Below are positions 4,590 to 64,000 of a DNA stretch of 64,000 bases, piece after piece. The translations under genes and the position numbers were made by a program. Source of the DNA: Lucinisca nassula (taxonomy: Eukaryota > Mollusca > Bivalvia > Lucinida > Lucinidae); the NCBI GenBank assembly GCA_963580285.1, contig OY757019.1, forward strand, positions 64,500,587-64,564,586. Direction: 5' to 3'. Below the pieces are notes generated by a model. It did no database searches. It had not been told where the DNA came from and was given only the letters and a program-made list of their open reading frames with translations. Every line of letters starts with the position of its first letter. Positions within the stretch are counted from its first letter, which is position 1.

Positions 4590-4765
4590 GAGAGAGGCAA
4601 GTGACTATTACACCACTGCTACCCATTTACAGCTGGGTGGAGTGAGGCAATGTCATTACGCGTCTTGCCCAAGGACACACCTCGATACCGGGTGCCGGAT
4701 TCGAACGCACAACCTCCCTATCATGAGTCGAACGCGTTAACCACTGTGCTATCGAGGCTGACACA
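4590..4765 (-). mobile_element. tRNA-derived SINE, second family
   Basis: Minus strand. An A-box-like TAGCACAGTGG (4741-4751) and a B-box GTTCGAATCC (4697-4706) have tRNA spacing. They are followed by a conserved body with GTGTCCTTGGGCAAGACGCG, CATTGCCTCACTCCACC and CAGCTGTAAATGGGT. That body is a widely shared animal SINE core. It is a tRNA-like head, not a functional tRNA gene, because the acceptor stem and anticodon arm do not close properly. Confidence 0.75.
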
Positions 4766-4774
4766 TGGCTGGTG

Positions 4775-4990
4775 TCTGGGAATGTGTGGCGGCCGTAAAA
4801 AGTCTCCCTGCCCTACATCATAGTGTAGTTTATATTTTCTTGTCCTTTGGCATCATTCATTCCATTATTGAATTTTGAAAATATCTGAGGGTCACTGATA
4901 GGGCCTAATTGGCCGAAACTAGCTAGTCTGGCCCAGAAAAACATGTATACTCCATATTTTCCAGTTCTCTGGTGCGTTCCTTGCTTCCAA
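4775..4990 (+). mobile_element. Decayed retrozyme copy with hammerhead-like core
   Basis: Plus-strand sequence matches the reverse complement of the 60 kb retrozyme units: GTGTGGCGGCCGTAAAA, then GTCTCCCTGCCCTACATCA, GTGTAGTTTATATTTTC and TTGTCCTTTGG. At 4889-4934 is GGGTCA, CTGATAG, GGCC-loop-GGCC, GAAAC, TAGCTAGTC, TGGCCC. Stem II is kept as GGCC/GGCC, but the catalytic CUGANGA has become CUGAUAG and stem I has a mismatch. An inactive, old copy is likely. Confidence 0.65.
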
Positions 4991-5234: not shown

Positions 5235-6060
5235 GAACAGAGGGCCAAGAGCTTAGATATTTAGCATGTAGCAACGGCAAGTGGTCACCTACATAAATCC
5301 TGCCAATCATGCCCCTGGGGTCCAAATGGACCACGCCCCGGGGCCCCTTAGCTCCCATAGACTCCTAATGGAAAAAATCTTCAAAAATCTTCTTCTCTGA
5401 AACCACAGGGCCGAGAGCTTAGATATTTAGCATGTAGCAACGGCAAGTGGTCACCTACATAAATCCTGCCAAACATGCCCCTGGGGTCCAAATGGGCCAC
5501 GCCCCGGGCCCCTTAACTCCCATAGACTGCTAATGGAAAAAAGCTTCAAAAATCTTCTTCTCTGAAACCACAGGGCCCAGAGCTTAGATATTTAGCATGT
5601 AGCAACGGCATGTGGTCAGCTACATAAATCCTGCCAATCATGCCCCTGGGGTCCAAATAGGCCACGCCCCGGGCCCCCTTAGCTCCCATAGACTCCTAAT
5701 GGGAAAAAGCTTCAAAAATCTTCTTCTCTGAAACCACAGGGCCCAGAATTTAGATATTTAGCATGTAGCAACGGCAAGTGGTCAACTACATAAATCCTGC
5801 CAATCATGCCCCTGGGTTCCAAATGGGCCACGCCTCAAGGCCCCTTAGCTCCCATAGACTCATAATGAAAAAAAAGCTTCAAAAATATCCTCTGAAACCA
5901 AAGGGCCCAGCGCTTAGATATTTAGCATGTAGCAACGGCAAGTGGTCACCTACATAAATCCTGCCAATCATGCCCCTTGGGCCAGAATTGGCCACGCCCA
6001 TGGCCCATTAGCTACCATGGATGGACTTAAAATGGAAAAAAAAACTTAAAATGAAAAAAA
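5235..6060. repeat. Tandem array, about 165 bp unit
   Basis: About five units sharing CTTAGATATTTAGCATGTAG, then CAACGGCAAGTGGTCA, then CATGCCCCTGGGGTCCAAAT and TCTTCTTCTCTGAAACCACA. It is cut by the Helentron-like element that starts at 6074, and unit fragments resume at 8360-8575. The larger element was therefore inserted into the array. Confidence 0.85.
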
Positions 6061-18300: not shown

Positions 18301-19518
18301 ATATCTCAGAAACCGTTCAGATCCCCACCCCTTAACCATATATATTCTTGTTCCTTATGATAAGACTCAACTTCATAATAGGCCATATATCTCAGAAACT
18401 ATTCAAATCCCATCCTATAATCACATATATTCTTGTTCATTGTTATTAGACACATTCAGTCACCCCCGTCTTTGGGGGTCTGCAGGGGCTATTTCTCTCA
18501 CTGTCACTTCATAAAAGTGCCTCATATCTCAGAAACCAGTCAGATCCCCACCGTTTAACCATATATACTCTTGGTCCTTATGATAAGACACATTCATTGA
18601 CAACAATTTTTGGCTTTTCTTGGATCTGCCATGCCCGATTCCCTCTATTGCTTAAAATGCCTTACATCCCAGGAACCATACATATTCCCACTGATAAACC
18701 ATATAAGTCTTTGTTCCTTTTGATAAGGCGCATTTATAAAACACTAATATTTCAGATACAGTCCACATGGGTGCTCATTTGGGTCTGGGGTTTGTTCGGG
18801 AGACTTTATATAGAGGATCTCGTGTATTATTGAATTTATTAAACCATTTGAGGAAAAGGGATAAAATGCGCGGCTTTGTCGAGCATTTTATCCCTTATCT
18901 TCGAGTTTAATAAGTTCAACAATACATGATTGTTTATAAAATGTCAATATTCCGCCATAAGTAAACACGACACGTAACGCTCCGGGGTGTATTTAACTAA
19001 TTAGCATATTTAATCCACCTGACCATGGATTATCGAATTTATTACATGACGTTATTACACTCTCAGATGCGACGTCATATGATAAAATTGGTATAATGAA
19101 ATCATATCATGTTATAATACATGGCTGCATTTGGACAGTGTCCACCTGAGCTCTGGTTTATGAACTTTGGCTTTTGCTATGCCAAGTTATGAGTTTCCAT
19201 TGTTCTATAATGGGGAAAATTGAAAAACGACATTAATGCCTTTCAAGATATTTTGTCACACTTTCATAGAAATGTTTCTTTAATGATGTTCCTTTTTGGC
19301 CTATTTGTTGCCACAGATGGGAACTTGTAAATTGGCATCTGTTGTCCTGCAACAACACATTCAAGCGACATCGAATCTAAGGCCACGAGGCTGATTGGGT
19401 CCAAATTTTATCTGTAGGATCCTAGGGCACATGGCTTCCATGGTTAATTATAATACATTGCTGACAGTGGGCACCCCCCCCCAGCTCTGATGAGCATTGT
19501 GGCCCATGGGCCTCTTGT
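15384..19518 (-). mobile_element. Helentron-like element, composite copy 3
   Basis: Minus strand. The start is at 19518 (ACAAGAGGCCCATGGGCCAC) with the subterminal repeat at 19485-19495 carrying one mismatch. 145 bp units run through 18740-16955 and again through 16520-15950. Pieces of the 3' region (GAAACTCTAAGTTGCC, AAAATGGCATTT) occur three times, near 16750, 15820 and 15540. The last piece, 15384-15480, matches the 3' part of copies 1 and 2 but is cut before the terminal hairpin. At least two nested or recombined copies are implied. Confidence 0.65.
18823..18932. repeat. Imperfect 110 bp palindrome
   Basis: TATTATTGAATTTATTAAAC near 18827 mirrors TTTAATAAGTTCAACAATAC near 18925. The inner arms AGGGATAAAATGC and GCATTTTATCCCT flank a GC-rich loop. 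It looks like a palindromic miniature element or the end of one, sitting within the Helentron-like region. Confidence 0.65.
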
Positions 19519-22615: not shown

Positions 22616-23258
22616 CTAGGTGTTAGTCATCCAGGAAATTAATCTATCTGAGAATGAGACCAGGGTATCACTATTTGTAATCTCATATGGAATACTATTC
22701 CAAATAATTGGCCCTGAATACGAAATGCTTTCCTTGAATTTGTCTAAATTTAGTTTTGGAACAATGAAGACTTGACTTGAGCTAGATCTGAGCGTCATAT
22801 TTAAAGGGTTTAATTCTCTTTTCTGGAAAAGCTCACACAAATAGTTCGGAGCTAAATGGTTAACAACTTTAAACATCATTTTTGCCTTGTTCAAGAATAT
22901 ATTTTGCTCAATTGACATAACTTTTAAGCGTGATTTAGCAGATTCATAGTCTACATATTCATATCCTAAGATAAATTTGAAAGCGCGTTTCTGTAATTTT
23001 GTTATATTAGAAATATTATAGTTTGAAGAATTACCCCATATGACATTGCTGTAATTAAAGTGAGGCTGAATATATGCTTTATAATAAAGAAGCCTATATT
23101 CTGAACTTAAGAAATGACTTATTTTTGACAACAACCAGATATAGGACGACACTTTCTTGCAAACAGCCTTGTAATGGGTACTCCATTGTAAATTTTCAAG
23201 TATTTTATCACCGTTAGTTATCTGTAACTCAATATTATCAAAAGTTAGTTTAAATACG
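22616..23258 (-). pseudogene. CR1 reverse transcriptase, C-terminal part
   Basis: The frame downstream of the RT palm reads YYKAYIQPHFNYSNVIWG, LQKRAFKFILGYE and ending FSDRLISWMTNT. This is the conserved thumb and carboxyl region of CR1-type LINE reverse transcriptases. Coding continues upstream in the same sense to about 23258, where hammerhead sequence interrupts it. The carboxyl end at 22616 is about 240 bp from the element end, a normal 3' UTR length. Confidence 0.85.
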
Positions 23259-23362
23259 CCGGATCATTACAGGGTCACTGATGAGGCTTTATTAGCCGAA
23301 ACTACGTAGTATGACCCATCTTCTTTCTTATGAATGTTTCCATTGCTCTTAAAGGAACTCAT
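23259..23362 (+). mobile_element. Solo hammerhead insertion in the LINE
   Basis: About 104 bp beginning CCGGATCATTACAGGGTC and ending GGAACTCATTTTTTATTTTT, opposite in sense to the LINE. It consists of one hammerhead and its immediate flanks from the retrozyme family, without the rest of the 382 nt unit. LINE coding sequence resumes on both sides. Confidence 0.75.
23272..23317 (+). ncRNA. Type I hammerhead ribozyme, solo
   Basis: GGGTCA (stem I), CTGATGA, GGCT-TTATT-AGCC (stem II), GAAA, CTACGTAG (stem III of 3 bp with a 2 nt loop), TA, TGACCC (stem I). All conserved core bases are present and stem I is a perfect 6 bp. The expected cut is after GTA, just before TGACCC. Such short stem III hammerheads are known to work best as dimers. 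Confidence 0.85.
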
Positions 23363-24796
23363 TTTTTATTTTTATTCATCAATATGTAAACGTTTCTGGC
23401 GTGTTGTGATAAGCATTACTTTTGTTTTTGCAGTGTTAAACACGGTAACACTGATGGATCAACATTCCATTTTGTTGACACCAGTCACGTAATGTTATAA
23501 GACAGTTTTGCAAGTTTAGCCTGAGTTCATTAATATCAGCATGTGCGTCATAAATAGTAGTATCGTCAGCATAAAGGTCTGTAGAGCAAATTTGATTGGA
23601 AAGATGCAATGGCAGATCATAATAAGAAATAGTAACGGGCCCAATATGGATCCTTGTGGAACTCCGCATTTGACGTAATCACGTTCTGATATTTTATTAT
23701 TTACAGATACTACCTGTGTTCTATCACTCAGATAGGATTGCATTAATGAAACAAAATTATTGCTACATTTATAGCATTTAAGTTTCTCTAAAAGTAAGTC
23801 ATGATCCACTAGGTCGAAAGCTTTTCTGAAATCTACCATGATAGAACCTACAATTTTGCCTTGGTTTATAGCCTTGAGCCAGTTTTCTGTCATGAGTGTT
23901 ATTGCACTTTCGGTAGAATGTCCAGATCGAAAACCACTTTGTATTTGATGTATAAGGTTAAAATTGTTTAAATATGACATAAGATTCTTCTGTATAAATT
24001 TTTCTAGAAGTTTTGATAATGTTGGCAAGATAGATATGGGACGGTAATTGTTCAGTTCATCTTTTGGGCCACCCTTGTGGAGCGGGGTTACTTTTGCTTG
24101 TTTCCATAAAGTGGGAAAACTGTTATTGTATAAACATTTTTGGGCTATAAAAGTAATGCTTTTCGAAATAACACCCGAAGAAAGTTTTAATAGTTTGGGT
24201 CCAATTCCATCTAAGCCTGTTGCTTTAGTGATATCAAGCGAAGATAAAAATCTGTATACAAAATTTTCATCTATATCGGGTAAACTAAAAAATGCGTTTT
24301 GCGGAACCTTATAATCAATATACGCCCTGAGTGTCCTTAAATCATTTGGCAGCAATGGCTCTTTAAGATCTGAAGCAATATTAATGAAATATTTGTTGAA
24401 ATGCTCCACTAATTCTTTGTCATCTGAGACTGTCTCGCCATCGATTCGCACTCCCAAAATACCATTACTTCTATTATTGCTATGTTTACTGGAGGCTCCA
24501 AATTCTTTAAAAATTTTCCAAATTGATTTCGGATCATCTTTCCCTGATTCGATTTTTTGTTCATATGTGGATTTTTAGCTATTTTAATTAAGGTCGATAT
24601 TCTGTTTCGTAGAGTTTTATATTCTTCCATATCCCCATGCTTTTTATGAGTATCTCTTTCTTTCATTGCATCCAATATTTCGGAAGTTATCCAGTCTGGT
24701 TGAGTTTTATGCTTTACCCTTTGAGTTTTCAGTGGTGCGTGCTTGTTTACAATATTTATGAAAAGTGAATACCAATTATCAAGGATGTCATCAACC
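23363..24796 (-). pseudogene. CR1 reverse transcriptase, central part
   Basis: Overlapping minus-strand frames span 24796 to about 23440. Residues include the linker PDWITSEILDAMKERD, the fingers motif KATGLDGIGPKLLKL, NNYRPISILPTLSKLLEK, IQSGFRSGHSTESA, VDFRKAFDLVDHDLL with the first catalytic aspartate, VPQGSILGPLLF and LYADDTTIYD (about 23570) with the catalytic pair. This enzyme primes reverse transcription at the nicked target. A frameshift near 23640 separates the GPLLF and YADD blocks, and another lies near 24430. Missing function is due to these shifts; the motifs themselves are intact. Confidence 0.9.
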
Positions 24797-24914
24797 ATAG
24801 TGCAGTTTATATTTTATTTTTGGTCCTTTGAGATCAGCGTGAATATTCTGAGAAAAATAAAAATCAAAAATGAGTTCCTTTAAGAGCAATGAAAATATTC
24901 ATAAGAAAAAAGAT

Positions 24915-24960
24915 GGGTCATACTACGTAGTTTCGGCTAATAAAGCCTCATCAGTGACCC
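24915..24960 (-). ncRNA. Type I hammerhead ribozyme, minus strand
   Basis: Reverse complement of the motif at 25137-25182 with identical core: GGGTCA, CTGATGA, GGCT...AGCC, GAAA, CTACGTAG, TA, TGACCC. No core base is changed. Confidence 0.85.
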
Positions 24961-25136
24961 TGTAATGATCCGGCAAATAAATCGGAAATAAATTATTGGT
25001 TTAGACTCATATTCTAGACAGGTTTTTAATTATTTGGACCCCATTTTGATTTATATCAGTCTTTGAATCGACTGCCTATTCGAAATTCGCAAAATTGCAG
25101 TATGTTTCCTCTGGCTTTCTTTGCCGGATCATTACA

Positions 25137-25182
25137 GGGTCACTGATGAGGCTTTATTAGCCGAAACTACGTAGTATGACCC
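25137..25182 (+). ncRNA. Type I hammerhead ribozyme, plus strand
   Basis: Same 46 nt structure as at 23272, perfect core and 6 bp stem I. Together with the minus-strand copy it forms an inverted pair within one insertion. A transcript through both could fold them against each other instead of into ribozymes. Confidence 0.85.
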
Positions 25183-25237
25183 ATCTTCTTTCTTATGAAT
25201 GTTTTCATTGCTCTTAAAGGAACTCATTTTTGAGTTT

Positions 25238-26338
25238 TTATTCATGAAAATGTCGCAAGTTATCCCAATTAATTGACAATAAATCTGTTAAAAACTCATT
25301 TTCGTTAAAATGTTTGAATGATCTGTAAGTTATATAGTTATGAGAGTTCTTTTTGCTACTTGAACTTACATTCCTATTACAAAAGATAGCGTAATGATCA
25401 CTAATACCTAATTCAGAAACGCACACATATTTCATCATTTGTGTAAATGTGATCTATAAGGGTACTTGAAAGTGTCGTTACTCTTATAGGTTGCACAACT
25501 ACTTGACTTAATCCTAATGATTCAGTGAGAACTACCCAATCTCTATTTACATCAACATTTAATAGATTTTTATTAAAATCTCCAAGTAAAATAACCTCTT
25601 TTTCCTCCATTAATACTGTTTCAATAAACATTTCAAAACGATCATTCCATTCAATTAATTCATTTGGATTTCTATATAGTGTACCACACAGAAATGGTTT
25701 ACCCTTATTCGGCGTAATTTCAAGCCATATGCATGCAATATCATTGGTCTCAAGGTCATCCCTTCGCTTCGACATTATATGATCTTTAACATGGACAAGT
25801 ATGCCTCCACCACCGTTGTTGTTATTATCTTTTCGATAAGGTGACTGAAAACCATTGGTTTATGGCTCTTAAGCTTAGTTTCGCATAAACCAAATATATG
25901 TATATTCTCATTTCTCTCTGCAGTCAACATCAATTCAATTTCAGAAAATTTTGTCATATCCATCGAACATAAACCCTGAACATTAAGAAATCCTATATAC
26001 ATACCCTTATTTTTTAGATTTAAATTCAAAACAGACTCATTTTTATGGTTTTCTGATTGTCTCTCTGTATCTAAAGCTGATTCGTATTGCCTCTCTTTAT
26101 CTATAGATGAATCAAGCTGTTTTGAATGAACTGAGCTGCATGTGCATGCTGTGTCATTTGCAGAACACTTAGATAACACCCCAAAATTTCCTACAACATA
26201 TGCAGATTGAATGCTTTTTTCATCATACTTTGAACACTGACAGTCGAAAAATAAAGAATTACAGTCACTGCAAACAGAATTTAAAACACTAAAATAATTT
26301 TCATTCACTGTACCATTATTTTGATCAATTACAGGCAT
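25238..26338 (-). pseudogene. CR1 endonuclease domain (ORF2 N-terminus)
   Basis: Minus-strand frames read IGFLNVQGLC and FGLCETKL (about 25990-25870), then WLEITPNKGKPFLCGTLYRN, EVILLGDFN (about 25600), LIDHIYTN and ISDHYAIFC (about 25400). These are the NxxG, E-T, GDFN and SDH blocks of apurinic/apyrimidinic-type endonucleases that nick target DNA for LINE insertion. Frame changes occur near 25775-25860 and 25430. ORF2 probably started near 26338, where MPVIDQNNGTVNENYF begins, close behind ORF1. Retrozyme sequence follows at 25237. Confidence 0.88.
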
Positions 26339-26368: not shown

Positions 26369-27738
26369 CTATTTCTGTGCTGTGTACCAACAATCAGAAA
26401 ACTTGTGTCCAACAAGATTGCACTCATAGCAACGGCCTCGGTTACCGCCAAACCGTCTGACCGAATGTCCATATTGATGCCTCCGAAACCCATTTCCACC
26501 TTGATTTCCCCTAATTCCATTTCTAGCTGTCTTTCCTTGATATCCGGCTGGCCCGCTGAAATTTCCCGGGTTTTGCGATCTCCGTCTGTTGTATACGCAT
26601 TCTCCGAAATCTGTAATTATTTGCAGTTTCCTATTGATTGCATCTAGGAGCCGTTTTATGCCAGAATCCGATAAATGAATACCATCATCCCTGTAGTATC
26701 TAGATGACAACTGGTCCTCTCTGAAGAAAAGTACATAGCTGTCTTGAACCAGTTCTACTTTTTGATTTCTCCAATGAGCGACGAGCTTAGCTAAGCAGCG
26801 GTTGATAACACAAACATCAACATCTCCTCTCGTTGCCACAGAGCAAACTAGTACTCGACATTCAACATTGCGACATTTTATCAAACTCAAAAGTTCATCG
26901 TAGTTTTCTTCTATTCTTCTAGGATCAGCGCCATTTGATAAATCATTTCCTCCTACGTAAAGAATAACAGTTGAAAAAGACTTCAAATCATATTGACTTG
27001 AACACTAAAGGACTGGTCAAAACTGTCCACAAGTCCTCAACAGGCGGAGCCACTGTTCAACTGCGGATGGCTTCTAGATGCAATCAATAGGAAACTGCAA
27101 ATAATTACAGATTTAGGAGAATGCGTATACAACAGACGGAGATCGCAAAACCCGGGAAAATTCAGCGGGCCAGACTTCAAATCTAATTGGTCGATCAAAC
27201 GTTGAACAGTGGCTCCGCCTGTTGAGGACTTGTGGACAGTTTTGACCAGTCCTTTAGTGTTCACACCAATTATTATAGAATCTCCGAGTAGAAGAATCTT
27301 TTCCCCAGATGGTTGAGGATTATACTGGGGTTTATGGCTTCTCGCAGGAATTGTCTGAACTGGCCGTGTTGGTCTGCTACCATTGTTTACTACTACGGGT
27401 ATGTGTTGCGGCTCTTCATTTGATATTGGAGTATCTGTTCGTTCACCACGTATCGGTACTGCTACTATAGGAGATTGCGTGCGTGCCTCCTGCAACAACA
27501 CGGATTTCTTTGCAACATTGGGCTGAAAAAATGACTGGCTTTCAGATGGATTATTGCTCACTATTTCGGAATACGTTGCCGGTTTCGACATATTTTCTAC
27601 CAATAGTATAATCGACTGTTTTAAGTCGCGCACGACGGAAATTATCTTTGAAATTAACATGGGCAGTTTTCTTCCGTTTGTTTGTACGTCATCATGGGAT
27701 GCAATTATCTCCAGTCCTTGTGGAATAAGTTTGGACAC
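26369..27738 (-). pseudogene. CR1 ORF1: SGNH esterase with zinc knuckle
   Basis: Read from 27738. An N-terminal region of unknown fold is followed by a Pro/Ser-rich linker. The esterase block I is KILLLGDSIIIGVN (about 27300), which holds the nucleophile serine. After an interruption the frame continues STVILYVGGNDLSNG and ends the domain with YRDDGIHLSDSG, the Asp-His pair of SGNH hydrolases. A Gly/Arg-rich stretch and a CCHC knuckle (CYECNLVGHKFSDCW) close the protein. CR1/L2 elements often carry such an ORF1, thought to bind element RNA and perhaps lipids. An insertion at 26989-27172 breaks the esterase. The first codon is GTG-like at 27738, so the true start may lie upstream. Confidence 0.85.
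26989..27172. repeat. Chimeric 184 bp insertion of inverted ORF1 pieces
   Basis: Flanked by GACTTCAAAT on both sides (26979-26988 and 27173-27182). It contains 27001-27060, which is a perfect reverse complement of 27202-27261. It also contains about 27070-27172, which is a nearly perfect reverse complement of about 26548-26650. Both source segments lie in the same LINE ORF1. Confidence 0.85.
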
Positions 27739-27885: not shown

Positions 27886-28145
27886 AACACCTTTGACGCA
27901 CAAACAGTTTTATAACATTTATTATCACAATAATTCTTCACAATCTCCAGACGTTTCGGCTTTTTACAGCCTTTTTCACGGATTTTTCTTTCAAGCTATC
28001 ACATATTTTTCCTATTCATCTTTCCACCATATTTAACATTAAATATGGTGGAAAGATGAATAGGAAAAATATGTGATAGCTTGAAAGAAAAATCCGTGAA
28101 AAAGGCTGTAAAAAGCCGAAACGTCTGGAGATTGTGAAGAATTAT
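27886..28145. repeat. Near-perfect palindromic insertion
   Basis: 260 bp inserted with a 12 bp direct repeat TATAAAGAAGTG at 27874-27885 and 28146-28157. Arms of 106 nt (27930-28035 and 28040-28145) surround a 4 nt ACAT centre. The right arm holds GGCTGTAAAAAGCCGAAACG, resembling a hammerhead stem II and GAAAC, but without the CUGANGA box. Confidence 0.85.
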
Positions 28146-28198
28146 TATAAAGAAGTGTACAGATCATTAACCACTGGCCAAATCTTGTATTAAGACAT

Positions 28199-35777: not shown

Positions 35778-37756
35778 AACAAGAGGCCCATGGGCCACTA
35801 TGCTCACCAGAGCTCAGGTGGGCACTGCCCAATGGCAGCCATGTACTTTAACATGATATCATTTTAATCTACCAAATGAACCCCCCATGTCCAAATGAGC
35901 ACCCATGTGGACTCAGTATCTGAAACATTAGGCCTTTTATGAAGTAGAGGGGTGGGGCATGGACCCAATGGAGCCCTGGTTGATATCACTAAATGCGTCT
36001 TATCATAAGGAACAAGAATATATATGGTTCAGCAGTGGGGATCTGTAAGGCCTCTTAAGTAGTAGTGGGGTTGGGGCATGCCCTGTTGATCCCAGGAAAG
36101 CCCAAGATTGTTGTCCCTAAATGTATCTTATCATAAGGACCAAGTATATATATGGTTTAGGGGTGGGAATCTGAACTGTTTCTGAGATTTGAGGCCCTTT
36201 TATGAAGTGGAAAGGATAGGAATGGCCCCTGCGGACCCCCTACAGTAGGTGTGATAATAATAAGGAACAAGAACATATATGATTTTGGGGTGGGGATTTG
36301 AATGGTTTCTGAAATATAAAGCCTTTTATGAAGTGGAAGGGCGGGGCACATTGCCTCAGCACAAATAGACCCCCAGGTTGATGTGATTAAAAGAGTCCTA
36401 TCATAAGGAACAAGTATACAATTTAGGGGTGGGGATCTAACTATTTCTGAGATATATGGCTTTTAATGAAGTAAAGCGATGCGGCATGGCCTGGGTATGC
36501 CCCGGGGACTCCCAAGCTGGTGTCACTGAATGCGTCTTATCATAACGAAGATAAATATATATGGTTTAGGGTGGGGCTAAGAACAGTTTCTGATATATAA
36601 GGCCTTTTGTGAAGTGGAGGGGTGAGGCAAGGCCCCGGGAGACTCCCAGGTTGGTGTCAATGAATGTGTCTTATCATAAGGAACAAGAATATGTATGGTT
36701 TAGGGTTAGTCATCTGTAGGGTTTCCGAGATATTGTGAGATTATGAAATGGAGGGGGTGGGCATGGCCCCAGCACATCCCTGGGGACCCCCAGGTTGGTG
36801 TCACTGAATGCGTCTTATCATAATGAACAAGAATATGTATGGTTTAGGGGTGAGGATCTGAACAGTTTCTGAGATGTATGGCCTTTTATGAAGTGAAGGG
36901 GTGGGGCAAGACCCCGGCGCATCCCTGAGAACCCCCAGGTTGGTGTCAATGAATGTGTCTTATCATAAGGATCAAGAATATAATGGTTTAGGGGCGGGGA
37001 TCTGTAAGGTTTCCGACATATTGGGCCTTTAATGGTATGGAGGGGGTGGGGCATGGCCCCGGCGCATCCCAGGGACCCCCAGGTTGATGTCACTGAATGG
37101 GTCTTATCATAAGGAACAAGAATATATATGGTTTAGGGGTGGGGATCTGAATGGTTTCCAAGATATTTGGCCTTTTATTAAGTGGAGGGGGTGGGGCGCA
37201 TCCCTTAGGACCCCCAGGTTGGTGTCACTGAATGCGTCTTATCAATAGGAACAAGAATATATATGGTTTAGGGGTCGGGATCTGAATGGTTTCTGTGATA
37301 TATGGCCTTTTATGTAGTGGAGGGGGTGGGGCATGGCCCCGGCACAACCTGGGGGACCCTCAGGTTGGTATAAAAGCATATGGCTGAGAGAAGTTTACTC
37401 AAGAAACATTTCTATAAAAGTTTTGTCAAAATATCTGCAATGACTTGGCAGTAAATGCCATTTTTCAATTTTCCCCATCATAAGTCTATGGAAACTCTAA
37501 GTTGCCATAGCAACCAAACTAATGGGCCGATTTTCATAAAAAACCCAACTTTCAATCCCCCAACCCAAGGATGCTACAGATAAAATTTGGGCCCAATCGG
37601 TCCAGTGGCTTCAGAGGAGAAGATGTTTAAAAGTGTTGACACCAGACATACGACGACGACGACGACGGCGACGAAGGCGACGAAGACGACGACGACGACG
37701 ACGGACAACTGCCTATCCTATAAGCTCCCCCGGAGCCTTCGGCTCTGGTGAGCAAA
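35778..37756 (+). mobile_element. Helentron-like non-autonomous element, copy 2
   Basis: Starts ACAAGAGGCCCATGGGCCAC. Subterminal repeats are GCTCACCAGAG (35802-35812) and CTCTGGTGAGC (37743-37753). About ten 145 bp units follow, then a 3' unique part, a GAC/GGC triplet run at about 37650-37705, and the hairpin GAGCC-TTC-GGCTC just before the end. It lies inside the left Polinton TIR with no clear target duplication. Comparison with the intact right TIR places the insertion in an A/T run, which fits Helentron-type insertion between T residues. Confidence 0.78.
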
Positions 37757-41176: not shown

Positions 41177-42732
41177 TCATTCAATGTCACTGGCTTTAAT
41201 CCAGGAATTGAATTTTTTCGGATAATACTTCCATTTTACAAAGTACTCTTTGTTCCGCTGCCTGCCTCTTGTTTTCAAGACCTTTTCAATTTTGTAAGAT
41301 ATTTTATCTAGATCAATGTCAAGAGGCAATAACGCGCTGCTATACCACGTTCCCTTTACTTCCTCACCCTGTAAGTCTTTTAGTCGATAAACAGGCAGAC
41401 CTCCTCTGTGGTATCTTTTCGAGACTTGAAATATTTCTCCTGAATACGTTTCATCATAGGCACGTGTAAACACACCTTTTAGATAGCTTATTCTCACATA
41501 CTGATTTATCTTAAACTTAAATGGTCTTTTCTTCGGCGTTTTAACTTGTTTTTGCGAATTCTGGGCAAAGTAGGTTGACAGACGAACTTGTTCTTCATTC
41601 TCGTGTTTCACATCAGCTGGTTTCATTCCAATGGTTCTATGGTAAGTTTTGTTATAGCTATCAGCAAGATCTTGTATGACGGGCAAATAGCTGAAATCAT
41701 CTTTAAATGTAAAATAACGACTAAGCCTGGACTTTATCGTTAAAATAGCCCTTTCTGATGTAGAAGCTTTCGTTTCATTCTGTGTGGGAAAGTATATAAC
41801 ACCATCTTTCTTCATCAGATCCTGTACCACATTTGCGCGAAATTCTTGGCCTGAAAACGAGAAAACAAAATCGTTATCCCTAGTAAATTGCGAGAAAAAA
41901 TTTTACATTATAGAATACTGAACTCAAATGACTCAGTATTACTTTTAAAACATAAATTTATATTCTTTTAGTTTGCCTTTAATGATAAAAACATCGCCCC
42001 CGCCCATCGGGGCTTGACGAAATATATGGGCTGCATGATGCTTCCACGCAGAGCTGAAACTGAACCGTACACGACTACTGGTAAACCGCTTAGAGGATCA
42101 AAGCCTGCCCAGGCAAAGCGGTCCATGCTTATAAACCCTATTGGTTTCATTGGGCGAGAGGGCTTGAGATGTCGGGTAAAAGTCCTATAGAATTGGAAGC
42201 AACGTCTCCAAAATGACCTTTACAGTGTTGACGGGGACCTTAGACCTCAAATCAAACGAACAAAAGATAAAAAAAAAAAACACGAAAATACCTTCCTACC
42301 TTTATCAGTTATGATCTTGTGTGGCGTTCGCCCATAGGTCTTGAATATGTCTTGAAAGGCATTCGCTACATATTGTCCGGATTTACCATTTAGTGGTCTA
42401 AGCCAGACGTATTTTGAAAACGTGTCTATGACAAGTAGAATGTATTTGTAACCTTTATTCCAGTCCTTGTATTTCACCATATCTATCAAATCCGCCATCC
42501 AAAGATCATCTTTGCCCGCACTCACTATATGGTTCCTCTGGAAGCGTCTCCTGGCTGGTTTGTGGAGAGCATAAGATTCTTGATTGTGGAGAAACTTTCG
42601 TATTTTGTACATGCCGATATTAAACTTTCCTTCATTTTTTACGACTCTGTATAACTTTTGTGGGCCTGCAAAACTGGCAGGGTGTTTAGGATCATAATAA
42701 ATTTCTTTTAAATAATTTTCCCACAATGCCAT
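41177..42732 (-). CDS. Polinton integrase with chromodomain, two exons
   Basis: Exon 1 is 42732-42300 and exon 2 is 41850-41177, about 368 residues. The intron 41851-42299 has donor AAAG|GTAGGA and acceptor TTTTCAG|GCC in phase 1. It falls inside the second catalytic aspartate motif (IITDKG then QEFRANVV). The first aspartate is in WMADLIDM. The glutamate is in STSERAILTIKSRL, and ISYLKGVFTRAY and a chromodomain-like end (YFVKWKYYPKKFNSWIKASD) follow. It would cut and join the element's ends; the chromodomain may steer it to marked chromatin. The intron holds a SINE, so the reading frame survives. The start is my choice: a 3' splice site (TTTCATTTACAG) lies 24 nt upstream, so a further 5' exon is possible. 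Confidence 0.85.
41851..42299 (-). other. Intron of the integrase gene
   Basis: 449 bp with GT...AG ends on the minus strand. More than half of it is a SINE (41996-42262). Removing it restores a continuous catalytic core. Confidence 0.8.
41996..42262 (+). mobile_element. SINE inside the integrase intron
   Basis: CGCCCCCGCCCATCGGGGCT to GACCTCAAATCAAACGAACA. AGATAAAAA-like A-rich sequence flanks both sides (about 41983 and 42265), consistent with a short imperfect target duplication. It is antisense to the integrase. Confidence 0.85.
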
Positions 42733-42800
42733 GTCTATTCTCACAACCGTATTCACTGTAAATGAAATTATGTGTTAATTGTTGTTAATTAAATATATTT

Positions 42801-44569: not shown

Positions 44570-45041
44570 GTTGCTCCTCTGAGAACTTACTTCAGAATGC
44601 CAATGTGTTACATTCTTATGCTATTTAAATCATTTTTGGCAACAACACTTCTGTTTTGAAAGCCTATCAAATCTCCGCAATCAAAACAAAGCGCGCATGT
44701 GCTAAAAATGATCTAAATATGCTGTTTGTAATACTATAAAATTATTCACATACTGATTGTTGTCATGTTTGGATGTATGAAAGAAGATATTTATTAAATC
44801 ATTTAGTGTTAAACAACATAAGGTGACTATTTACGACTAAGCAAAACTAGTTACATGTAACTTTTAAGTCTTGTCTTGTAATTGTAGTCTCGCCTGTTTT
44901 ATTGTCTGCTAAAGTAGGTGAGTCATAATTTTGAAAAATTGAAAACAACTACGAACCTCTAATTCGTTTGATTATGCAATTATTGTTTTGATTATTACAA
45001 ACAGTTCATACATGTCTCATTTCAGACTACAAACAGTGAAG
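44570..45041. promoter_or_regulatory. Shared gap between divergent ATPase and polymerase genes
   Basis: 472 bp, AT-rich, separating genes read in opposite directions. It is probably a bidirectional promoter. A 3' splice-like TCATTTCAG at 45017-45025 precedes the polymerase ATG, so the polymerase mRNA may have an untranslated first exon here. Confidence 0.5.
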
Positions 45042-48000
45042 ATGGTTTCTTATCAGTGCGAAGAGTGTGGCTGTTCCTTTCCAAAATTGAGTCAGCTTCT
45101 ACAGCACAGGAGAACTGAAAATCATTGGAAGAAATACATATGTTCAACGTGCAAAAAAGTCTTCCACAGAAAATCTAATCTCGATCGTCACATGCAAAAA
45201 CACCAGAATGAAAATAACTTCCACTGCACAAAGTGTTCAAAAGTTTTCATTAGTAAAGATGCGCTGGAGGATCACTTAAACCATCATGACAATCAAACTG
45301 GAGGAGCTGCTAAAAGGCCAAATGAAGACCATGGAAAAGGGGAGAATAAGAGGAGAAAGGGGGAGCTAATAGGCGATGCGGATCGATTCTACAATATACA
45401 GAATGTTAGCGAAAGAAAAATAGAAAAGTTCAATACCAGTGCCTCATATTACAAGATATCAGTCAATGATCTAGATGTTAGAGGACTTCCTGAGATTTTG
45501 AAGGCACTGAAGAAATTATTTCAGTCAATAATTGACACTATTGCTAAAGGCCTACCCTCCAACGATCTGGTGAGGATTTCAATGGATAATCCGGAACTCG
45601 ATTACCCTATAGTTCTACCGTTTATTAGGCGACATGAACTGACAGTAGATAGAGTTTTGACAGAAATCGAACGAGTGTTGCAATCGTATGAACAATTCGT
45701 ATTGGACGAGACATTTGGTGTGGAATTTGTTCATGTGCAAATGGTGAAAGGGTCTGGTCAGAAGCCAAAACCCTATGTTGACATAGGAAAGTTACTGGGA
45801 AGTAAGAAAAGTGTGATACAGATCAGGAACTCTGACAAACTATGTTGTGCAAGGGCTCTTGTGACAGCAATGGCTCGCACACAGAACCACCCACAGTGGA
45901 ACAACATTAGGAGAGGCTTTAAAATACAGGAAACATTGGCCAAAGACTTGCATAAAATTGCGGGTATACCTCTAGAGGGGTGTGACGTATCTGATATCAA
46001 ACTATTTCAGAAAGTCTTACCAGACTTTCAGATTCATGTCCTATCCAAAGAACATTTCAATGCTGTAATATACCAGGGTCCTGAAGGCGGAATACCAATC
46101 TATCTGTATTATCATGATCAACACTTCGATGTGATTACAAAGGTGACGGGTTTTTTAAACAGAAGCTATTTTTGTCTTCAGTGCAAGAAAGGTTACAACA
46201 ATAAAGAAAGGCATAACTGCCACAGCCCATGTCACTTCTGTAAACATATTCACACAGATAATGAAGAAGACTGGACTCATTGCAAACAATGTAACTGCAA
46301 ATTTGTTAATCAGACTTGCTATGAACTCCATTTGAAAGAAACAAAATTTGGTAATTCGACTTGCAAAGCATATTATAGATGTCGAGAATGCAATCAGTTG
46401 ATCAATAAGTCAAAACAAAAAGCAGATCATATCTGTGGAGAAATATATTGTAAAATTTGTAAGGGTTACTTTGCGGGAGATCATCTCTGCTACATGACTG
46501 CTGAAGAGGAAAACCAACCAACTTCAAAGAAAAAGCAAGTGAATTCCCTAAAATATATCTTCTTCGACTTCGAGTGTCGGGCCGATGATCAGATTCATTG
46601 CGATAGTTATAGACCAAACAAAAACAACAAATGTTCCAACTGTGGAAAATCTACATGTGGGACATTTGCGCATGTTCCAAATTTATGTGTTGTACACAAA
46701 GTATGCGATTTTTGTCTTGACAAACCCATCAAACCATCGTCTAAATGTGACCGTTGTGGACTGAACGAACGCGTTTTCTCTGGTCCTGATACAACCAGTT
46801 TATTTTGTAAGTGGCTGTTTGCCGAAGAAAATGTCGGCGCTACAGTGATATGCCACAATTTTAAAGGGTATGATAGTTATCCCATATTAAATTATTTGCA
46901 CGAAAATGGTATCCTTCCTGAGGTTATTACGACAGGTTCAAAATACATGTCCATAAAAGTGCCCGCTTGCAAGCTTCGGTTCATAGATTCTTTAAATTTC
47001 ATCCCCATGGCATTAGCAGATATGCCTAAAGCTTTTGGTGAAACAGAACTGATCAAAGGTTTCTTTCCACATCTGTACAATTGTGCAGAAAACCAAGCAT
47101 CAGTCTTGAATCAGTTGCCAGATATTTCATGTTACAATCCAGATGGTATGAAACCAGAGATCAGAAAAGAGTTTTTGAAATGGTATGAACACCATCAAAT
47201 GGACCCGTTTCATTTTCAAGAAGAATTACTACGATACTGCAGATCTGATGTAGACATATTAAGAAGGTGTTGTCTCAGATTTCGGTCATTGTTTATGGAA
47301 TTGACAAAGAAAGAAGCCACAGATGGGATCGATCCATTTGAGAAGTGCATTACCATTGCATCCGCTTGCAACCTGGTATTTAAAAAGAATTTCCTTGAAA
47401 ATGAAACCATTGGTATCATACCTCACCATGGATATCGACCTAACGACAAGCAGTCAATTATGGCATATCAGTGGCTCTATTACTTGGCCCACGATAAGAA
47501 TCTTAACATACAACATGGCAGAAACACGGGAGAAAAACATATTGGACCATACAAAGTGGATGGTTATCATGAGTCTGAGGATGAATATACGGTGTATGAA
47601 TTTCATGGCTGCTTTTGGCACGGCTGTCCAGACTGTTTCTCAAGAACTACCTTTAATACAGTGGTCCAGTTAAGTATGGCAGATTTATATGCTCAAACCG
47701 TTGAAAAAAGGCTTTATCTCGAATCAGAAGGATATTGTTACGTATGCATTTGGGAGTGTGAGTTCAAAAAAGAACTAGAAAACAACAATGCTATGAAACG
47801 TTACATCCAGTCTCTTGATCTTGTCACGCCTTTAGCTCCAAGGGATGCCTTTTACGGTGGTCGAACCGAAGCGTTCAAATTATACGAAGAAGCTGACCCC
47901 TGCAAACAAATCAAATATTATGATGTAACATCTCTTTACCCTTTCATCAATAAAACTGGTAAAATTCCTCTCGGACATCCAGAAATCATCACAGAGAATT

Positions 48001-48578
48001 TCGATTCTATCGACAATTACGAGGGTTTGATCAAGTGTAAAATATTGCCACCAAAAGGTCTATATATTCCTGTTTTGCCAACTAGATGTAACGGAAAACT
48101 TATGTTCAGCCTCTGTCGATCTTGTTGTGAAACTTATCAACAGACTGACTGTTATCATCTCGATAACGAACGTGCATTTGTGGGAACGTGGGTCACAGAT
48201 GAAGTCAAAGAAGCAATTTCCCAAGGGTATAAGATTATGAATGTCTACGAAGTTTGGCATTTTTCAAACATATCACAATACAATCCTTGCACCAAAACAG
48301 GTGGCGTTTTTACTGAATATGTTAATACCTTTCTCAAAGTGAAACAAGAAGCTAGTGGCTGGCCTGACTGGTGTAAAGACGAAAAAAGCAAACAAAATTA
48401 CATACAACAGTACTTTGAAAGAGAGGGCATTTTCTTAGACTATAGCAATATAGAAGAAAACCCAGGTTTAAGATCTCTATCAAAACTGATGCTCAATTCG
48501 TTCTGGGGAAAGTTTGGGCAAAGATCCAACTTAATGCAAACTACCTACACTGACGATCCCGAGCAATTTTTGACATGA
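45042..48578 (+). CDS. Protein-primed-type DNA polymerase B, main part
   Basis: ATG at 45042 starts MVSYQCEECGCSF, chosen over an upstream in-frame TTG. Three C2H2 fingers occupy residues 5-80, followed by a basic KRP...NKRRKG stretch. A Cys-rich block lies at about 46170-46500. The exonuclease motifs are FFDFE (46559), CHNFKGYDSYPI (46850) and YCRSDVD (47234). A segment EFHGCFWHGCPDC (47595-47640) resembles a Vsr-type nuclease motif found in some Polinton polymerases. Palm motifs A (YDVTSLYP, 47919) and B (KLMLNSFWGKFGQ, 48483) are intact. The frame ends at 48578 before motif C, which lies in the next frame. At 1178 residues plus the next 200 it is long for the family. It replicates the element, with a terminal protein as primer in relatives. 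Confidence 0.9.
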   Translation: MVSYQCEECGCSFPKLSQLLQHRRTENHWKKYICSTCKKVFHRKSNLDRHMQKHQNENNFHCTKCSKVFISKDALEDHLNHHDNQTGGAAKRPNEDHGKGENKRRKGELIGDADRFYNIQNVSERKIEKFNTSASYYKISVNDLDVRGLPEILKALKKLFQSIIDTIAKGLPSNDLVRISMDNPELDYPIVLPFIRRHELTVDRVLTEIERVLQSYEQFVLDETFGVEFVHVQMVKGSGQKPKPYVDIGKLLGSKKSVIQIRNSDKLCCARALVTAMARTQNHPQWNNIRRGFKIQETLAKDLHKIAGIPLEGCDVSDIKLFQKVLPDFQIHVLSKEHFNAVIYQGPEGGIPIYLYYHDQHFDVITKVTGFLNRSYFCLQCKKGYNNKERHNCHSPCHFCKHIHTDNEEDWTHCKQCNCKFVNQTCYELHLKETKFGNSTCKAYYRCRECNQLINKSKQKADHICGEIYCKICKGYFAGDHLCYMTAEEENQPTSKKKQVNSLKYIFFDFECRADDQIHCDSYRPNKNNKCSNCGKSTCGTFAHVPNLCVVHKVCDFCLDKPIKPSSKCDRCGLNERVFSGPDTTSLFCKWLFAEENVGATVICHNFKGYDSYPILNYLHENGILPEVITTGSKYMSIKVPACKLRFIDSLNFIPMALADMPKAFGETELIKGFFPHLYNCAENQASVLNQLPDISCYNPDGMKPEIRKEFLKWYEHHQMDPFHFQEELLRYCRSDVDILRRCCLRFRSLFMELTKKEATDGIDPFEKCITIASACNLVFKKNFLENETIGIIPHHGYRPNDKQSIMAYQWLYYLAHDKNLNIQHGRNTGEKHIGPYKVDGYHESEDEYTVYEFHGCFWHGCPDCFSRTTFNTVVQLSMADLYAQTVEKRLYLESEGYCYVCIWECEFKKELENNNAMKRYIQSLDLVTPLAPRDAFYGGRTEAFKLYEEADPCKQIKYYDVTSLYPFINKTGKIPLGHPEIITENFDSIDNYEGLIKCKILPPKGLYIPVLPTRCNGKLMFSLCRSCCETYQQTDCYHLDNERAFVGTWVTDEVKEAISQGYKIMNVYEVWHFSNISQYNPCTKTGGVFTEYVNTFLKVKQEASGWPDWCKDEKSKQNYIQQYFEREGIFLDYSNIEENPGLRSLSKLMLNSFWGKFGQRSNLMQTTYTDDPEQFLT

Positions 48579-58870: not shown

Positions 58871-59343
58871 AAGTAGAAGTAAAACAAAGATCAGGAATCG
58901 ATAGAATTAACTTACTCCACCCATCAAAGACACCAAAGGGAAAGAAACACAAACATTAAGCTACCAGACCATAATGGAAACCTAAACAAAGGAAGGCCAT
59001 AAGGACAGTTACTTTCCCACAAAATGGCCATATGGCCATCCAAAATAAAAAGACACAAGTGATACACACAGTAAGTAACAAACAACACCATAAATAAACC
59101 GCCACAGAAGAACCGCCTTGGAACGGTCAGTGGAATGATTTCCACTGGGGGGGGGGGGGGGGGCTTAAATCGATTTTACGTGGCCACAATCCTCACCCTT
59201 ACTTCCGTCGCAATTTAGACAAATAATTTGTTCAGTCCGCATGAAGGCCTCCTAACTCTACAGTGCAACATCTCCGTGCACACAAAAATCAAAGAACCAC
59301 AGAGGTGAGACAACGGTGAGGACACGACAGCAAGAAATCACTC
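58871..59343 (-). mobile_element. Dispersed unknown element, copy F
   Basis: Begins AAGTAGAAGTAAAACAAAGA right after CAACGCA of the satellite and ends AGCAAGAAATCACTCA right before ATTCTAATTAATG. It lacks the region beyond GCAAGAAATCA that copy B has. It includes a G run near 59146-59162. Confidence 0.88.
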
Positions 59344-60090
59344 AATTCTAATTAATGATATTTTTTAAGATCTGTGTGTATTACATTAGGCGTTGTTACA
59401 TTAGGCGTTGCAGTCAACGCCAAATTTAACAACGCATGTTTTCTAATTAATGATATTACTTAAGATCTGAGTCTATTACATTAGGCGTTGTTACATTAGG
59501 CGTTGCAGTCAACGCCAATTGAAAAACAACGCCTAGTGTAATAAAGAAACTTTCGTCTAGGACAATATGAAATCTGAAAAAAAAGTTTAAATCATAAAGT
59601 ATCCATATACCTTGGGGTCGAAGGTTGTGTGGGTACTGGGGTCGAAGGGGGTAGGGGTAATGGGGTCGAAGGGGGTGTGGGTACTGGGGTCGAAGGGGGT
59701 GTGGGTACTTATGTTTGTATGGTGGGGAGCTCGTGCTTCAACGCAACTCTACTCTAATTAATGATATTATTTAAGATCCGAGTGTATTACATTAGGCGTT
59801 GTTACATTAGGCGTTGCATTCAACGCCAAATGTAACAACGCCTAATGTAATAAAGAAACTTTTTTCTAGGACATGATGAAATCTAAAAAAAAAGTTAAAA
59901 TCGTAGAGTATTCATATACCTTGGGGTCGAAGGTTGTGTGGGTACTGGGGTAGAAGGGGTTGTGGGTACTGGTGTCGAAGGTGGTGTGAGTACTTGGAGT
60001 GTGTATGGTGGGGAGCTTCTGCTTCAACGCAAATAAAAATCAAAAATGAGTTCCTTTTAGAGCAATGAAAACATTCATAAGAAAGAAGAT

Positions 60091-60136
60091 GGGTCATACT
60101 ACGTAGTTTCGGCTAATAAAGCCTCGTCAGTGACCC
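60091..60136 (-). ncRNA. Type I hammerhead ribozyme, retrozyme 1a
   Basis: Minus strand GGGTCA, CTGACGA, GGCT-TTATT-AGCC, GAAA, CTACGTAG, TA, TGACCC. Base 7 of the core is C, a freely variable position (CUGANGA). All fixed bases are present. The predicted cut is between 60097 and 60096. Confidence 0.85.
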
Positions 60137-60472
60137 TGTAATGATCCGGCTACGAAAGCCAGAGGAAACATACTGCAATTTTTCGAATTTCGAATAGGCA
60201 GTCGATTCAAAGACTGATATAAATCAAAATAGTGTCCAAATAATTAAAAACCTGTCTAGAATATGAGTCTAAACCAATAATTATATATGATTTTCCAGAA
60301 TATTTACGCTGATCTCAAAGGACAAAAAGAAAAATATAAACTGCACTGTGGTTGATGTACGGGGAGACGTTTTACGGCCGCCACACGGCACAACACAAGC
60401 TACAGTGAAGGCAAATAAAAATCAAAAATGAGTTCCTTTTAGAGCAATGAAAACATTCATAAGAAAGAAGAT

Positions 60473-60518
60473 GGGTCATACTACGTAGTTTCGGCTAATA
60501 AAGCCTCGTCAGTGACCC
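60473..60518 (-). ncRNA. Type I hammerhead ribozyme, retrozyme 1b
   Basis: Identical 46 nt to 60091-60136, 382 nt away, same strand. The predicted cut is between 60479 and 60478. Confidence 0.85.
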
Positions 60519-61827
60519 TGTAATGATCCGGCTACGAAAGCCAGAGGAAACATACTGCAATTTTTCGAATTTCGAATAGGCAGTCGATTCAAAGACTGAT
60601 ATAAATCAAAATAGTGTCCAAATAATTAAAAACCTGTCTATTCTAATTAATGATATGACTTAAGTTCTGAATGTATTCAATTAGGCGTTGTTACATTAGG
60701 CGTTGCAGTCAACGCCAATTGAAAAACAACGCCTAATGTAATAAAGTAACTTTCGTCTAGGACAATATGAATTCTGAAAAAAGTTTAAATCATAGAGTAT
60801 CCATATACCTTGGGGTCGAAGGCTGTGTGGGTACTGGGGGTCGAAGGGGGTATGGGTAATGGGGTCGAAGGGGGTGTTGGTACTGGGGTCGAAGGGGGTG
60901 TGGGTACTTATGTGTGTATGGTGGGGAGCTTGTGCTTCAACGCAACTCTACTCTAATTAATGATATAATTTAAGATCCGACTGTATTACATTAGGCGTTG
61001 TTACATTAGGCGTTGCAGTCAATGCCAAATGTAACTGCGCCTAATGTAATAAAGAAACTTTCGTCTAGGACAAGATGAAATCTAAAAAAAAAATTAAAAT
61101 CGTAGAGTATTCAAATACCTTAGGGTCAAAGGTTGTGTTGGTGCTGGGGTCAAAGGGGGTGTGGGTACTGGGGTCGAAGGGTGTATGGGTACTGCGGTCG
61201 AAGGGGGTGTGTGTACTTGGAGTGTGTATAGTGGGAAGCTTGTGCTTCAACGCAACTTTATTCTAATTAATGAAATTATTTAAGATCTGAGTGTATTAAA
61301 TTAGGCGTTGTTACATTAGGCGTTGCAGTCAACGCCAAATGTAACAACGCCTAATGTAATAAAGTAAATTTCGTCTTGGACAAGATGAAATCTCAAAAAA
61401 AAGTTAAATTCGTAGAGTATCCATATACCTTGGAGTCGAAGGTTTTGTGGGTACTGGGGTCGAAGGTGGTGTGGGCACTTTGGTCGAAGTTGGTGTGGGT
61501 ACTTGGAGTGTGTGTGGTGGGGAGCTTGTGCTTCAACGCAACTCTATTCTAATTATTGATATTACTTAAGATCTGAGTGTATTACATTAGGCGTTGTTAC
61601 ATTAGGCGTTGCAGTCAACGCCAAATGAAAAACAACGCCTAATGTAATAAAGTAACTTTCGTCCAGGACAAGATGAAATCTAAAAAAAAAAGTGAAAATC
61701 ATAGAGTATCCATATGCCTTGGGGTCGAAGGTTGTGGGTACTGGGGTCGAAGGGGGTATGGATACTGGGGTCGAAGGGGGTGTGGGTACTTGGAGTGTGT
61801 ATGGTGGGGAGCTTGTGCTTCAACGCA

Positions 61828-62299
61828 AAGTAGAAGTAAAACAAAGATCAGGAATCGATAGAATTAACTTACTCCACCCATCAAAGACACCAAAGGGAAA
61901 GAAACACAAACATTAAGCTACCAGACCATAATGGAAACCTAAACAAAGGAAGGCCATAAGGACAGTTACTTTCCCACAAAATGGCCATATGGCCATCCAA
62001 AATAAAAAGACACAAGTGATACACACAGTAAGTAACAAACAACACCATAAATAAACCGCCACAGAAGAACCGCCTTGGAACGGTCAGTGGAATGATTTCC
62101 ACTGGGGGGGGGGGGGGGCTTAAATCGATTTTACGTGGCCACAATCCTCACCCTTACTTCCGTCGCAATTTAGACAAATAATTTGTTCAGTCCGCATGAA
62201 GGCCTCCTAACTCTACAGTGCAACATCTCCGTGCACACAAAAATCAAAGAACCACAGAGGTGAGACAACGGTGAGGACACGACAGCAAGAAATCACTCA
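61828..62299 (-). mobile_element. Dispersed unknown element, copy G
   Basis: Product of the 2955 bp duplication of copy F; one or two fewer Gs in the run near 62105-62119, otherwise the same. Confidence 0.88.
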
Positions 62300-63045
62300 A
62301 TTCTAATTAATGATATTTTTTAAGATCTGTGTGTATTACATTAGGCGTTGTTACATTAGGCGTTGCAGTCAACGCCAAATTTAACAACGCATGTTTTCTA
62401 ATTAATGATATTACTTAAGATCTGAGTCTATTACATTAGGCGTTGTTACATTAGGCGTTGCAGTCAACGCCAATTGAAAAACAACGCCTAGTGTAATAAA
62501 GAAACTTTCGTCTAGGACAATATGAAATCTGAAAAAAAAGTTTAAATCATAAAGTATCCATATACCTTGGGGTCGAAGGTTGTGTGGGTACTGGGGTCGA
62601 AGGGGGTAGGGGTAATGGGGTCGAAGGGGGTGTGGGTACTGGGGTCGAAGGGGGTGTGGGTACTTATGTTTGTATGGTGGGGAGCTCGTGCTTCAACGCA
62701 ACTCTACTCTAATTAATGATATTATTTAAGATCCGAGTGTATTACATTAGGCGTTGTTACATTAGGCGTTGCATTCAACGCCAAATGTAACAACGCCTAA
62801 TGTAATAAAGAAACTTTTTTCTAGGACATGATGAAATCTAAAAAAAAAGTTAAAATCGTAGAGTATTCATATACCTTGGGGTCGAAGGTTGTGTGGGTAC
62901 TGGGGTAGAAGGGGTTGTGGGTACTGGTGTCGAAGGTGGTGTGAGTACTTGGAGTGTGTATGGTGGGGAGCTTCTGCTTCAACGCAAATAAAAATCAAAA
63001 ATGAGTTCCTTTTAGAGCAATGAAAACATTCATAAGAAAGAAGAT

Positions 63046-63091
63046 GGGTCATACTACGTAGTTTCGGCTAATAAAGCCTCGTCAGTGACCC
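63046..63091 (-). ncRNA. Type I hammerhead ribozyme, retrozyme 2a
   Basis: Same sequence as 60091-60136, complete core. Confidence 0.85.
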
Positions 63092-63427
63092 TGTAATGAT
63101 CCGGCTACGAAAGCCAGAGGAAACATACTGCAATTTTTCGAATTTCGAATAGGCAGTCGATTCAAAGACTGATATAAATCAAAATAGTGTCCAAATAATT
63201 AAAAACCTGTCTAGAATATGAGTCTAAACCAATAATTATATATGATTTTCCAGAATATTTACGCTGATCTCAAAGGACAAAAAGAAAAATATAAACTGCA
63301 CTGTGGTTGATGTACGGGGAGACGTTTTACGGCCGCCACACGGCACAACACAAGCTACAGTGAAGGCAAATAAAAATCAAAAATGAGTTCCTTTTAGAGC
63401 AATGAAAACATTCATAAGAAAGAAGAT

Positions 63428-63473
63428 GGGTCATACTACGTAGTTTCGGCTAATAAAGCCTCGTCAGTGACCC
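63428..63473 (-). ncRNA. Type I hammerhead ribozyme, retrozyme 2b
   Basis: Same sequence as 60473-60518 and again 382 nt from its partner. Confidence 0.85.
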
Positions 63474-64000
63474 TGTAATGATCCGGCTACGAAAGCCAGA
63501 GGAAACATACTGCAATTTTTCGAATTTCGAATAGGCAGTCGATTCAAAGACTGATATAAATCAAAATAGTGTCCAAATAATTAAAAACCTGTCTATTCTA
63601 ATTAATGATATGACTTAAGTTCTGAATGTATTCAATTAGGCGTTGTTACATTAGGCGTTGCAGTCAACGCCAATTGAAAAACAACGCCTAATGTAATAAA
63701 GTAACTTTCGTCTAGGACAATATGAATTCTGAAAAAAGTTTAAATCATAGAGTATCCATATACCTTGGGGTCGAAGGCTGTGTGGGTACTGGGGGTCGAA
63801 GGGGGTATGGGTAATGGGGTCGAAGGGGGTGTTGGTACTGGGGTCGAAGGGGGTGTGGGTACTTATGTGTGTATGGTGGGGAGCTTGTGCTTCAACGCAA
63901 CTCTACTCTAATTAATGATATAATTTAAGATCCGACTGTATTACATTAGGCGTTGTTACATTAGGCGTTGCAGTCAATGCCAAATGTAACTGCGCCTAAT

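Follow-up and report, generated by a model that had tools for sequence, protein, structure and literature searches.

The question raised by this locus of the bivalve Lucinisca nassula is whether a short non-coding tandem repeat that carries hammerhead ribozyme motifs is a retrozyme, and, if so, how its copies came to be dispersed over the window (the whole stretch of 64 kb that was analyzed). The tandem element is located on the minus strand at 60031-60639 within an array of a ~287-bp satellite, and comprises 1.59 units of 382 nt (609 nt in total); its 3' end was placed at 60032/60031 and its 5' end at 60636, after the bases TAGA (60640-60637) that are common to unit and target. As originally claimed, two identical 46-nt motifs lie 382 nt apart on the minus strand, i.e., type I hammerhead 1 at 60473-60518 (predicted cut between 60479 and 60478) and type I hammerhead 2 at 60091-60136 (predicted cut between 60097 and 60096), and the tandem unit is confirmed by an identity at period 382 that is exact over 230 nt (60029-60258 vs. 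60411-60640). Self-cleavage at both sites is predicted to release a 382-nt monomer (60097-60478, minus strand; GC content 36.6%), which is presumed to exist as an RNA circle. The absence of a coding frame likewise holds, the longest ATG-initiated frames in the tandem element being 35 aa (minus strand) and 22 aa (plus strand).

In the 46-nt hammerhead, stem I comprises 6 bp and stem II 4 bp. Stem III, described in the original prediction as having 3 bp, consists of CU/AG capped by ACGU and reaches 3 bp if the adjoining A-U pair of the core is counted. The 46-nt motif, with up to three mismatches allowed, was found 7 times in the 64-kb window and not once in 100 shuffles. A descriptor comprising the core and the three stems gave 7 hits in the window vs. 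one hit overall in 100 sequences of 64 kb simulated with an order-1 Markov model (these 7 hits are not independent, as 4 derive from the tandem element and its exact duplicate). The core of the hammerhead is intact in seven of its eight copies within the window.

The extent first assigned to the element proved correct for the tandem element itself and incomplete for the window, where one further 609-nt copy, a diverged hammerhead (4889-4934), and three hammerheads in the interval 23272-25182 had been overlooked. The second 609-nt element (62986-63594, minus strand; hammerheads at 63046-63091 and 63428-63473) is identical to the first and is part of an exact duplication with an offset of 2955, in which 59149-61045 equals 62104-64000 (at least 1897 nt, up to the end of the window and including satellite and retrozyme); this is either a recent duplication or an assembly artefact. 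The three hammerheads at 23-25 kb, all with the core CTGATGA, are hosted by a LINE on the minus strand that encodes a reverse transcriptase and a GDSL esterase. A single, 5'-truncated retrozyme copy (24789-25242, plus strand; hammerhead at 25137-25182) is inserted in the reading frame of the LINE, and the four bases at its 5' end (CATC, 24789-24792) are common to unit and target. It is split by a nested antisense copy of only 119 nt (24856-24974, minus strand), which consists of a hammerhead (24915-24960) and a 3' tail. Another mini copy of 119 nt with the same composition (23258-23376, plus strand; hammerhead at 23272-23317) is located within the LINE reading frame. The array and the copies in the LINE are about 97% alike. 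Elsewhere in the LINE-derived sequence, two pieces with the GDSL esterase ORF region (26548-26652 and 27069-27173) lie in inverse orientation and are 97% complementary.

The diverged copy (4784-4934, plus strand) comprises a part that can be aligned to the unit (4784-4855; local alignment score 81 vs. 30.5 for the best of 200 shuffles) and the hammerhead at 4889-4934; its ends could not be placed. A tRNA-like stretch on the minus strand (4700-4758; 15.8 bits, cut-off 29), perhaps a SINE, adjoins it. Excluding the duplicate at 62986, the dispersed copies amount to five insertions per 64 kb.

The window contains other repeats and elements as well. Extended tandem arrays (periods of about 145 and 166 bp) occur at 1-1113, 5241-6018, 6698-8010, 16954-18366, and 36260-37369, and a perfect inverted repeat with arms of 108 nt separated by 2 nt at 27929-28146. 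An ORF with an integrase core (42247-42756) and an ORF of 1196 aa for a type B DNA polymerase (44988-48578) were identified, a combination as in Polinton/Maverick elements. The polymerase ORF gave 2453 matches, the best four with 78-81% identity; among the matches listed (the best 120 of the 2453), the highest that bears a name was from a MAG of a lucinid-clam symbiont (76%), followed by Mya arenaria (68%) and then other bivalves, so that the named matches near the top are for the most part bivalve proteins and a bivalve host is likely. The match in the symbiont MAG was taken for host contamination.

The original prediction had named a covariance search as a check, a score below threshold counting against the motif, and by the letter of that check the outcome was unfavorable: no match reached the Rfam gathering score. 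The best Rfam model on the array was RF00008 with 25.6 bits (cut-off 48.5), and the same model gave 20.3-23.2 bits on the three LINE copies (cut-off 48.5). The Rfam model of the type I hammerhead was absent from the permissive match tables, even for a stretch of 56 nt, and for the diverged hammerhead at 4889-4934 there was no Rfam hammerhead match up to an E-value of 5. A type III identity, as might be read from a sub-threshold Rfam match, was rejected (this match pairs other bases and leaves out the 6-bp stem I), and matches to other families (among them an HtrA thermometer, BSR0626, microRNAs, and Plastid-ycf2), all below their own cut-offs, were taken as chance. We do not regard the low scores as decisive, because the published survey of retrozymes used RNAMotif descriptors and inspection (PMC7229834), and because the motif shows its core, its stems, and covariation.

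The covariation is provided by the diverged hammerhead. It differs from the LINE copies in 9 of 46 positions (five of them within the 28 columns that pair), and all 14 pairs are kept. Two of the pairs have undergone double changes (stem II pair 4 from U-A to C-G and the innermost pair of stem III from C-G to G-C), and one pair of stem I has changed from U-A to U-G. When five changes were placed randomly in the paired columns, all 14 pairs were kept in 467 of 300000 trials. If the two inner pairs of stem III, impossible within one hairpin, are dropped, the covariation is weaker: on the remaining 12 pairs there are three changes, and the pairs were kept in 4092 of 300000 trials. The core bases 8-9 of the diverged hammerhead read AG instead of GA, and judged from this alteration it is probably inactive. 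Its 8-nt stem III palindrome is still palindromic (CUACGUAG has become CUAGCUAG), an outcome that followed two random changes in 14184 of 300000 trials. An 8-nt palindrome is what two hammerheads need for pairing as a dimer; as a sign of such pairing, its retention in this single sequence comparison is suggestive only.

The insertions were compared in a unit numbering in which position 1 is the first base after the predicted cut. In the alignment, the array, the single copy, and both 119-nt copies share the same 3' end at unit position 65, and their starts are at unit positions 225 (array), 122 (single copy), and 329 (both mini copies, beginning at 23258 and 24974; no differences private to this pair were seen in the alignment). 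The array and its duplicate were counted once and the diverged copy, with ends that could not be placed, was left out, so that the argument from the 3' end has four insertions from a single window behind it, of which two begin at the same position. The insertion point of the array is seen empty in 28 uninterrupted satellite sites in the window (the listing had 32 rows, of which 62805, 59850, 11562, and 4548 were dropped as other sites), and GT or GTT was lost upon insertion. Across both LINE insertions the LINE reading frame closes in frame, which is compatible with gains or losses in multiples of three. No target-site duplication longer than 1 nt was found at the three sites (of the four insertions) that are readable as empty. 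The pentanucleotide ATGTC was rejected as a target-site duplication of the single LINE copy, because its second occurrence, after that at the 5' junction, is 7 nt past the 3' end and does not touch this end. A Pol III terminator was considered as an explanation of the common 3' end and rejected, as T5 runs also occur elsewhere in the unit. The traces left by target-primed reverse transcription of non-LTR elements are a 3' end that is fixed, 5' ends that vary, and a short sequence shared at the 5' junction. The shared 3' end and the varying starts of the aligned copies are thus a strong hint of target-primed reverse transcription, though no proof. In published metazoan retrozymes, which lack LTRs, a primer-binding site, and a polypurine tract, target-site duplications, when present, exceed 4 bp (PMC7229834), in contrast to the three sites here.

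Among known systems, the element is closest in description to the non-LTR retrozymes of metazoans, which have type I hammerheads, tandem repeats, a low GC content, and circular RNAs of about 170-400 nt (PMC7229834; Cervera and de la Pena 2020); the repeats of this class are in direct tandem, each of about 150-450 bp and with a single hammerhead (PMC7229834). A type I core with its stems, a tandem of 382 nt, low GC, lack of a coding frame, and multiple copies are all found here. In the mussel Mytilus galloprovincialis, for which abundant circular RNA and about 5000 hammerheads, located in ~350-390-bp repeats, are reported, the retrozyme is similar in its type I hammerhead and short tandem repeats (~350-390 bp vs. 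382 nt here) and, compared by description, in low GC, lack of a coding frame, and occurrence in several copies (PMC7229834). Stem III is short here, and two base pairs with a tetraloop are typical of invertebrate retrozymes (PMC7229834). Satellite retrozymes of newt and axolotl also have a short stem III, and one axolotl family has a palindromic tetraloop that allows two hammerheads to pair; they differ in units of 330-350 bp and in their host, and dimer activity was measured there, whereas it is predicted here (PMC7229834). Copies that consist of a hammerhead and a tail (119 nt), as seen here, are not mentioned in the part of PMC7229834 that was consulted. The LTR retrozymes of plants are comparable as non-autonomous, hammerhead-flanked elements with circular RNA intermediates, but they have type III hammerheads (type I here), units of ~700 bp (382 nt here), LTRs, a primer-binding site, and 4-bp target-site duplications (PMC7229834, PMC7761336). 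The element thus fits the metazoan retrozyme features examined, with reservations concerning the Rfam cut-offs and the lack of a clear target-site duplication, and the 382-nt unit apparently adds a new member to a known family of elements. Relatives of the 382-nt unit were not found by search and pattern scans in phage records or in IMG/VR and GTDB contigs; this says little, because none of these is an animal collection.

The folds predicted for the RNA bear on how such an element might cut. The minimum-energy fold of the 609-nt RNA (-142.8 kcal/mol) includes a dimeric hammerhead (pair probabilities 0.74 to 1.0), in which the strands of stem I pair across the copies and the two stem III palindromes pair together. 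Forcing two monomeric hammerheads upon the same RNA gave -134.5 kcal/mol, a cost of 8.3 kcal/mol; the predicted fold of the 609-nt element therefore favors the dimer. In the 382-nt circle, the mean predicted pair probability is 0.93 for stem I, 0.94 for stem II, and 0.02 for stem III (0.11 for stem III in a mini copy), and the lowest-energy fold of the isolated 46-nt motif (-13.3 kcal/mol) differs from the catalytic fold (-10.1 kcal/mol). Unusual stability of the 382-nt RNA was not found, neither in linear form (z -1.25, 14 of 100 shuffles as stable) nor as a circle (8 of 100 shuffles as stable). The weak stem III does not exclude activity of the monomer, because the fold model leaves out tertiary contacts and because cleavage at about 0.1 per min is reported for a cloned repeat of the mussel, whose hammerhead is of type I; the mussel hammerheads are described as lacking most nucleotides of the canonical type I tertiary contacts between loops 1 and 2 (PMC7229834). 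The original prediction had linked the short stem III to activity as a dimer, which agrees with what has been published for amphibian retrozymes, but not with the cleavage reported for the cloned mussel repeat and the efficient cleavage of most invertebrate retrozymes (PMC7229834).

Three other readings of the locus were weighed. An identity as satellite DNA with a chance hammerhead, spread solely by duplication at the DNA level, would agree with the position of the array within the ~287-bp satellite, and one copy of the array was indeed made by exact duplication (offset 2955). The array, however, interrupts the satellite, whose monomer does not include it, single copies are located in unrelated targets (two places in the LINE frame, one copy nested in another), and the copies share a 3' end while the LINE frames close in frame, which makes this reading highly improbable. 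We give equally little credence to the idea that these are pieces of pseudo-LTRs from a Penelope-like element, in which hammerheads are also tandem. The hammerheads of Penelope-like elements and Terminons are similar to ours (type I, minimal, tandem, with a weak stem III; PMC7761336), and Penelope-like elements have been named as the likely helper of retrozymes (PMC7229834). These are autonomous coding retrotransposons (PMC7761336), whereas no such frame was found in or beside the 382-nt element: frames within the 382-nt interval do not exceed 35 aa, and a Pfam scan of the window's ORFs of 150 aa or more (19 ORFs, all of which were scanned) gave no match to a GIY-YIG family.

The third reading, in which the element descends from a retrozyme but has lost the ability to cut, its copies being relics, overlaps with our preferred explanation and differs from it on present activity alone. 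The low Rfam scores, the truncation of the LINE copies, the altered core of the diverged copy, and the predicted weakness of the monomeric stem III would all be in line with it. We nevertheless consider it unlikely, given the intact core in 7 of 8 hammerheads, the similarity of about 97% between array and LINE copies, and a predicted tandem fold that corresponds to a dimeric ribozyme. Overall, the locus is very probably best explained as a 382-nt metazoan-type non-LTR retrozyme with a type I hammerhead, taken together with a proposal on its copying and dimeric fold; the identity as a retrozyme that was originally claimed is supported by dispersed copies in unrelated sites, by their shared 3' end, and by helices kept through double changes. 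For the 382-nt element we infer cleavage, circularization, reverse transcription, mobility, and a helper enzyme.

According to this proposal, transcripts of tandem copies would cut themselves after GUA into 382-nt monomers, which a host ligase would close into circles. Another element, of the LINE or Penelope-like kind, would supply the reverse transcriptase that copies the retrozyme RNA, beginning in a U-rich stretch at unit position 65 and extending over a variable distance, and new copies would accordingly have a common 3' end and differ in size (119 nt up to more than a full unit). The two ribozymes of the tandem precursor are predicted to pair via the 8-nt stem III palindrome, an arrangement that would promote the cutting of multimers over that of one-unit circles. 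In its specific form, the proposal that reverse transcription has a fixed start, a variable stop, and no target-site duplication, that the 119-nt copies are SINE-like, and that the palindromic stem III makes cutting dependent on the tandem and thereby spares one-unit circles, is tentative, and we hold it to be possible but somewhat doubtful.

As an element, the 382-nt unit is one more retrozyme. Its copies bear on two matters raised for the family. For retrozyme circles, either target DNA or a small RNA has been proposed to provide the primer (PMC7229834), and, as stated in PMC7761336, no conserved motif in retrozyme repeats betrays the helper retrotransposon, Penelope-like elements being candidates. 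The common 3' end, the varying 5' ends, and the lack of a clear target-site duplication would be indicative of priming at the target, of the LINE or Penelope type, and single out the position at which it may begin. It is also a published open point that something must stop the ribozyme in the circles from cutting (PMC7229834); if the proposal is true, the circles would escape reopening for the simple reason that the ribozyme has to be a dimer to work well.
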